The notes under the pieces were generated by a model, which saw only the letters and a list, made by a program, of their open reading frames with translations, was not told the origin of the DNA and made no database searches. From NCBI GenBank assembly GCA_035645145.1, contig DASQNC010000015.1, forward strand, positions 124,001 through 188,000: a stretch of DNA of 64,000 nucleotides. The letters are read 5' to 3'. This stretch comes from Azospirillaceae bacterium (GTDB lineage Bacteria > Pseudomonadota > Alphaproteobacteria > Azospirillales > Azospirillaceae). The translations under genes were made by a program, and so were the position numbers. Of this stretch, positions 51,460 to 52,380 are shown piece by piece (positions within the stretch are counted from its first letter, which is position 1; each line of letters begins with the position of its first letter).

Positions 51460-51936
51460 ATGGCCCAAACCGCAGCCCATGAACGGCGGCTGGCCGCCCA
51501 GAACCGTCGCGCGCGCCACGACTATTTCATCGACGACACCATCGAGGCCGGCATCATCCTGGCCGGCACCGAGGTGAAGTCCCTGCGCAGTGGCCGCGCC
51601 AGCATCAACGAGAGCTATGCCGGCCCCAGCGAGGGGGACCTCTGGCTTTTCAACGCCTACATCCCGGAATACCAGCAGGCCGGACGCTGGCTTCAGCACG
51701 AGGTGCGCCGGCCGCGCAAGTTGCTGCTGCACCGGCGCGAGCGGAACAAGCTGATGGAGGCGATCCAGCGGGAAGGGGCGACGCTCGTCCCGCTGTCGAT
51801 CTACTTCAACGACCGCGGCATCGCGAAGGTGGAGCTGGGTCTCGCCCGCGGCAAGAAGAAGGCCGACAAGCGCGAGACGGAGAAGGAGCGCTCATGGCAA
51901 CGGGACAAGGCGCGCCTGCTGCGGTCCAGGGGGTGA
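51460..51936 (+). CDS. smpB: SsrA-binding protein
   Basis: This 158-aa OB-fold protein binds tmRNA and brings it to stalled ribosomes. Conserved parts are [40 protein letters not shown], the basic [13 protein letters not shown] and the C-terminal tail [20 protein letters not shown] that enters the decoding centre. dapA-smpB order is common in alphaproteobacteria. The tmRNA gene itself was not found in the window. Confidence 0.97.
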
Positions 51937-51953
51937 AAGCCCGAAGGGGCTAA

Positions 51954-51984
51954 CCACCCGGAGGTGTGCTACACTTCCGGGTGG
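51954..51984 (+). promoter_or_regulatory. 14-bp hairpin between smpB and the FSNG-repeat gene
   Basis: Arms 51954-51967 and 51971-51984 pair over 14 bp with a single G-U/G-T pair and a 3-nt loop (GCT). It starts 17 nt after the smpB stop, lacks a following T run and lies 36 nt before the next start codon. A smaller hairpin (AGCCC-GAAG-GGGCT, from 51938) precedes it. It could be an intrinsic barrier, a message-end stabiliser or a leader control element. Confidence 0.5.
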
Positions 51985-52020
51985 AAGTGCCCTGTCTGCG
52001 ATGCTGGGAGCGAGGCATCC

Positions 52021-52374
52021 ATGTCCCTGAACGCCCTGGAAGTTGCCGTCTATGCCCTGGTCCTGATGGGCGGCGCACCCGAACCTTTTTCCTGCGAAGC
52101 CAACCCGACCGGGGTGCGCTGCTCGCACGGGGTCGCCGCCTTCGAGGGCGAAAAGCAGTCGATCCTGTTTTCCAATGGGCTGCGCGTGATCAAGGGTGCC
52201 GACCGCAGCCTGGGCTTTTCCAACGGCTTGACGGCGCGGATGGACTCCGCGGGCTGGATCCAATTCTCCAACGGCGTCGGTGTCCGCCGGGACCGGCCCG
52301 GCCGGTTCAAGTTCAGCCACGACATGGTCTGCGAGCAGGTGGGGGAACACGGGGCCCGTTGCCGGAAGGGGTGA
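52021..52374 (+). CDS. Small protein of five 16-residue FSNG repeats
   Basis: This 117-aa protein starts MSLNALEVAVYALVLMGGAP, a hydrophobic N-terminus without basic residues. From residue 32 five consecutive blocks of exactly 16 residues follow (32-47, 48-63, 64-79, 80-95, 96-111), each with the pattern x-x-F-S-N-G-hydrophobic; in the first block F is Cys34 and in the last NGL becomes HDM. A partial sixth block ends with Cys114. Cys25, Cys34, Cys104 and Cys114 may form disulfides capping a small beta-solenoid or beta-meander. GCGAGG precedes the ATG; the frame is open from 51964. Function unknown. Confidence 0.75.
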   Translation: MSLNALEVAVYALVLMGGAPEPFSCEANPTGVRCSHGVAAFEGEKQSILFSNGLRVIKGADRSLGFSNGLTARMDSAGWIQFSNGVGVRRDRPGRFKFSHDMVCEQVGEHGARCRKG

Positions 52375-52380
52375 TCCCAA

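Follow-up and report, generated by a model that had tools for sequence, protein, structure and literature searches.

The locus raises the question of what kind of protein is encoded by the small gene that follows smpB in the window, i.e., the whole 64,000-nucleotide stretch of DNA that was analyzed. The coding sequence (52021–52374, forward strand) specified 117 amino acids plus a stop codon, and its coding part without the stop was 52021–52371. Residues 32–111 (52114–52353, forward strand) comprised five blocks of 16 residues in the order VRCSHGVAAFEGEKQS, ILFSNGLRVIKGADRS, LGFSNGLTARMDSAGW, IQFSNGVGVRRDRPGR and FKFSHDMVCEQVGEHG, followed by ARCRKG. There were 19 self-identities at offset 16 and at most nine at every other offset, and across periods 5–30 not one of 20,000 shuffled sequences attained 19. 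The 16-residue repeat of this protein is genuine. The initial annotation had described five exact FSNG repeats; the block length was borne out, but the literal FSNG existed only in blocks 2–4, with CSHG in block 1 and FSHD in block 5. No DNA-level repeat was found in the gene, which indicated that the duplications were old. The anchor spacing was exactly 16 throughout in 12 of the 29 family members, while the rest had at least one interval of 13–21. This would be expected for hairpins with variable loops, not for a rigid coil.

The gene itself is real, conserved and under purifying selection. Orthologues with intact frames were present in 31 of the 59 genomes searched, every one belonging to Azospirillaceae (among them Skermanella, Nitrospirillum, Niveispirillum, Oleisolibacter, and many Azospirillum species), and in none of the 24 genomes of other families within that sample. 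The dN/dS ratios ranged from 0.02 to 0.26 across eleven orthologue pairs. An opposite-strand ORF of 162 aa (51892–52380, reverse strand) spans the gene and was taken as a GC-rich shadow. That the opposite strand is also open would fit the idea that the repeat-protein gene is spurious, an ORF arising by chance or as a shadow where the DNA is GC-rich; this idea has next to no probability, since it is refuted by the selection data, together with the intact frames and the invariant residues of the family.

In a class-wide sample, the profile search detected the family in 15 of 385 genomes, a count that takes in one merely distant relative (L089, described below); the genomes included some from a few other families. 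The phylum samples, which were thin, contained no member beyond the window's own genome; one of them, which lacked a positive control, came back empty. The family is widespread in Azospirillaceae, including root-associated nitrogen fixers, and scattered across other Alphaproteobacteria. The Azospirillum copies, of which WP_014249747.1 is one orthologue, sit on large plasmids or chromids and, where annotated, are labeled 'hypothetical protein'. One genome outside Azospirillaceae (G326) possessed two divergent copies, L084 and L090.

The position of the gene behind smpB and a strong hairpin, as first described, was confirmed. Upstream lies smpB (51460–51936, forward strand; PF01668, E 1.4e-55), which is context only, and a 14-bp stem-loop is located between the two genes (51954–51984, forward strand; z −3.58 for the 101-nt stretch). 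The stem-loop had no T-run as in a terminator, was single-copy in the genome and was not kept at the corresponding place in the sister genome; thus, it was not considered part of the feature. Orthologues adjoining smpB, which the initial annotation had proposed to look for in Rhodospirillales, were found in a congeneric sister genome (L002/L032) but not elsewhere, and a functional linkage with smpB was rejected because the arrangement was kept in the same genus only. In Azospirillum, the neighbors were LysR, GST, wrbA and a SpoIIE-type phosphatase. The neighboring genes varied between genera and none was conserved among them, so there is no operon partner. The smpB neighborhood and the intervening hairpin are incidental to the repeat protein. 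Its presence in most Azospirillaceae genomes with differing neighborhoods suggested a function independent of the neighbors.

No Pfam or NCBIfam family was found for the repeat protein, and the window protein (P0001) had no Pfam match at E up to 10. The earlier statement that no named family carries this repeat holds for both collections, which have overlooked a conserved and confidently foldable protein family. Two resources for phages and viruses were likewise negative: the viral library gave nothing at E ≤ 0.001, and PHROGs gave nothing below E 0.1. A Pfam match to MORN repeats, which the initial annotation had put forward for checking, did not materialize, as no MORN family appeared for the window protein or among the matches of the 29 members. 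MORN repeats are protein interaction modules that mediate protein contacts, and they are likewise antiparallel beta-strand repeats; however, their consensus YEGEWxNGKxHGYG (PMC7725318) was missing from the window family. Weak matches to the TCP10/G-box family (PF07202) were observed in 3 of the 29 members (best E 0.0039); judged by their E-values, they were far too weak for the curated cut-off of 36 bits, and the window protein itself had no match to PF07202. The TCP10/G-box domain of CPAP, solved as about 20 strands with a proline-rich peptide bound along its edge (PMC3776556), is likewise a single antiparallel-hairpin meander with xDG/xNG turns. However, both of its faces are exposed and it has no core, whereas the window protein is modeled with a helix and has apparently one hydrophobic face, and cysteines.

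Two further candidates were rejected. A short stretch of E. coli YcgJ (PF05666), FANGVFC, resembled the last block of the window protein, and the two were regarded as unrelated at an hhalign probability of 1.0%. The SH3 domain of PI3K was matched by phmmer against the PDB at E 0.0016, but the family profile gave E 2.3, and the match was treated as chance.

AlphaFold2, run with the 29-member alignment, modeled a helix at residues 5–16 followed by 12 strands of 3–6 residues arranged in hairpins (pLDDT 92.7, pTM 0.87). Between the two folds proposed earlier, a minimal beta-solenoid, which would have parallel stacked coils of about 16 residues, or a beta-meander, the model favors the meander. The weak structural neighbors from Foldseek and VIA-align were antiparallel meanders (polo-box, TCP10 domain, lipocalin-like, LolA and Rhs shells), not beta-helices. 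Foldseek found no close solved fold (best E 0.37). The best VIA match was a designed protein, ZZ4 (Z 5.0), which by the tool's own note is no proof of a new fold. The YD/Rhs shells, hairpin-repeat sheets among the VIA neighbors at Z 3–5, are very large closed cages, and their resemblance to the window protein is only local. From the strand register, the conserved hydrophobic residues appear to lie on one face of the sheet, which would pack on the helix.

Ten columns were invariant in the family: Glu7, Cys25, Cys34, Ser67, Asn68, Gly69, Trp79, Phe82, Cys104, and Cys114. The first belongs to the N-terminal hydrophobic helix (residues 5–16; 52033–52068, forward strand), a strongly conserved part that the initial annotation had passed over. 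The N-terminal consensus M-N-V-L-E-V-A-V-Y-A-M-V-L was one of the stretches with the lowest entropy in the family. The hydrophobic part had an 11-residue Kyte–Doolittle mean of 2.0–2.7 and extended over only about 11–12 residues, and K or R preceded the invariant Glu in 0 of 39 members. By eye and composition, neither an ordinary signal peptide nor a lipobox was recognized in the window family, and no AXA site was evident. Type IV pilins have a leader ending in Gly or Ala before mature residue 1, Glu5, and about 20 or more hydrophobic residues. The window protein differs from such an N-terminus: the Glu lies 5–7 residues from the start Met, there is no leader, and the hydrophobic stretch is too short.

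The four cysteines were invariant in all 29 aligned members. The first bracketed hairpin runs from Cys25 to Cys34 (52093–52122, forward strand) and the last from Cys104 to Cys114 (52330–52362, forward strand). Judging from the predicted strand register, strands 23–28/31–34 would set Cys25 opposite Cys34, and strands 102–107/111–116 would set Cys104 opposite Cys114. The suggestion that these residues tie the ends of the protein together was therefore modified: all four are present, but the register pairs them within single hairpins, so they would cap each end. The first Cys spacing was longer in other family members (9–18 residues).

A set of exported proteins pointed to wider kinship. The family profile found a 240-aa ORF (L089, in genome G270) that is probably a lipoprotein: it has a lipobox-like LLLTGC, and its 15-residue SDG repeats lie between CNLIGEAVFC and CRYIGETLFC. 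The comparison of the family profile with L089 by hhalign gave a probability of 92.8 (E 4.1e-7), and in the reverse search the L089 repeat recovered two family members at about E 1e-5. The AlphaFold2 model of L089 was also a 12-strand meander, with C5–C14 and C80–C89 opposed (pLDDT 86.1, pTM 0.61); its agreement with the family is not independent, because the five-sequence alignment behind it includes family members. Two small proteins, L092 and P0004 from Phaeobacter (WP_199536933.1), had signal-peptide-like N-termini and C-x8-C brackets, and their profile support to the window family was weak or none (20% for P0004 and 0.6% for L092). The exported SDG-repeat proteins share with the window protein the S-D/N-G hairpin turns and C-x8/9-C in the first and last hairpins; this bracket around S-[DN]-G repeats is found in the window protein. 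In contrast, their period is 15 residues instead of about 16, and they have a signal peptide or lipobox and no conserved Glu helix. The window family probably branched off, and diverged, within a wider exported SDG/SNG-repeat set whose members share its cysteine brackets. A common ancestry is likely rather than established, since repeat-rich sequences can inflate profile scores. This kinship offers a natural, very small hairpin-repeat scaffold.

Here, we propose that the protein belongs to an unnamed family of disulfide-capped beta-meanders of the cell envelope, probably serving as a small binding scaffold, and we consider this reading about evenly balanced between right and wrong. It would form one domain, an antiparallel beta-meander of 12 strands in which a first hairpin is followed by five hairpin repeats of about 16 residues. 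The short N-terminal helix is probably packed against the hydrophobic face of the sheet. The cross-strand cysteine pairs 25–34 and 104–114 would close the ends, most likely as disulfides in the envelope. By analogy, the exposed polar face or the sheet edge of such a rigid scaffold may hold a peptide, glycan or protein partner. Exported relatives and the pairing of the cysteines speak for the envelope location; the missing K/R before the Glu and an N-terminus unusually conserved for a signal peptide speak against it. A description of the family as an unnamed fold, a helix-filled mini-barrel built solely from short hairpin repeats, disulfide-capped at both ends and exported without a recognizable signal peptide, seems improbable to us in that full form.

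Two other explanations would assign the helix or the cysteines differently. The N-terminal helix might be an uncleaved export signal or an anchor that attaches the protein to the membrane with the meander facing the periplasm, which we regard as rather unlikely. The helix is placed like the signal peptides of the relatives (hhalign aligned the Phaeobacter signal peptide there, at low probability) and is hydrophobic, but the stretch is short, contains the invariant Glu, lacks a positive n-region and is a confident helix within the compact AlphaFold2 model. A little less probable still is a cytosolic metal protein, in which the four cysteines would coordinate zinc (or a different metal) at the junction of the first and last hairpins in a closed barrel around the helix. 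The absence of signal peptide features and of K/R ahead of the Glu and the invariance of the four cysteines are consistent with it, and from the register the Cys pairs appear to share a face with the conserved hydrophobic residues. However, cysteines directly opposed inside hairpins have the usual disulfide geometry, the spacing C-x8/9-C differs from the CxxC of zinc knuckles, and export signals are present in relatives that share these brackets.

Small proteins with export-like signals and repeats of about 15 residues of the type IGxxTYxSDGxT occurred in Alpha-, Beta- and Gammaproteobacteria, and several were bracketed by C-x8-C. They were located at L099:735–1058 (+), L089:1489–2175 (−), L092:1417–1803 (+), L100:732–1055 (+) and L102:759–1070 (+), and had no significant Pfam or NCBIfam family. 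On a plasmid of the cyanobacterium Acaryochloris, three to four WYYPNGQTAKSIGG repeats were found within a larger exported-looking protein (L101:447–1154, +), which had a sub-threshold MORN_2 match (E 6.3e-06).
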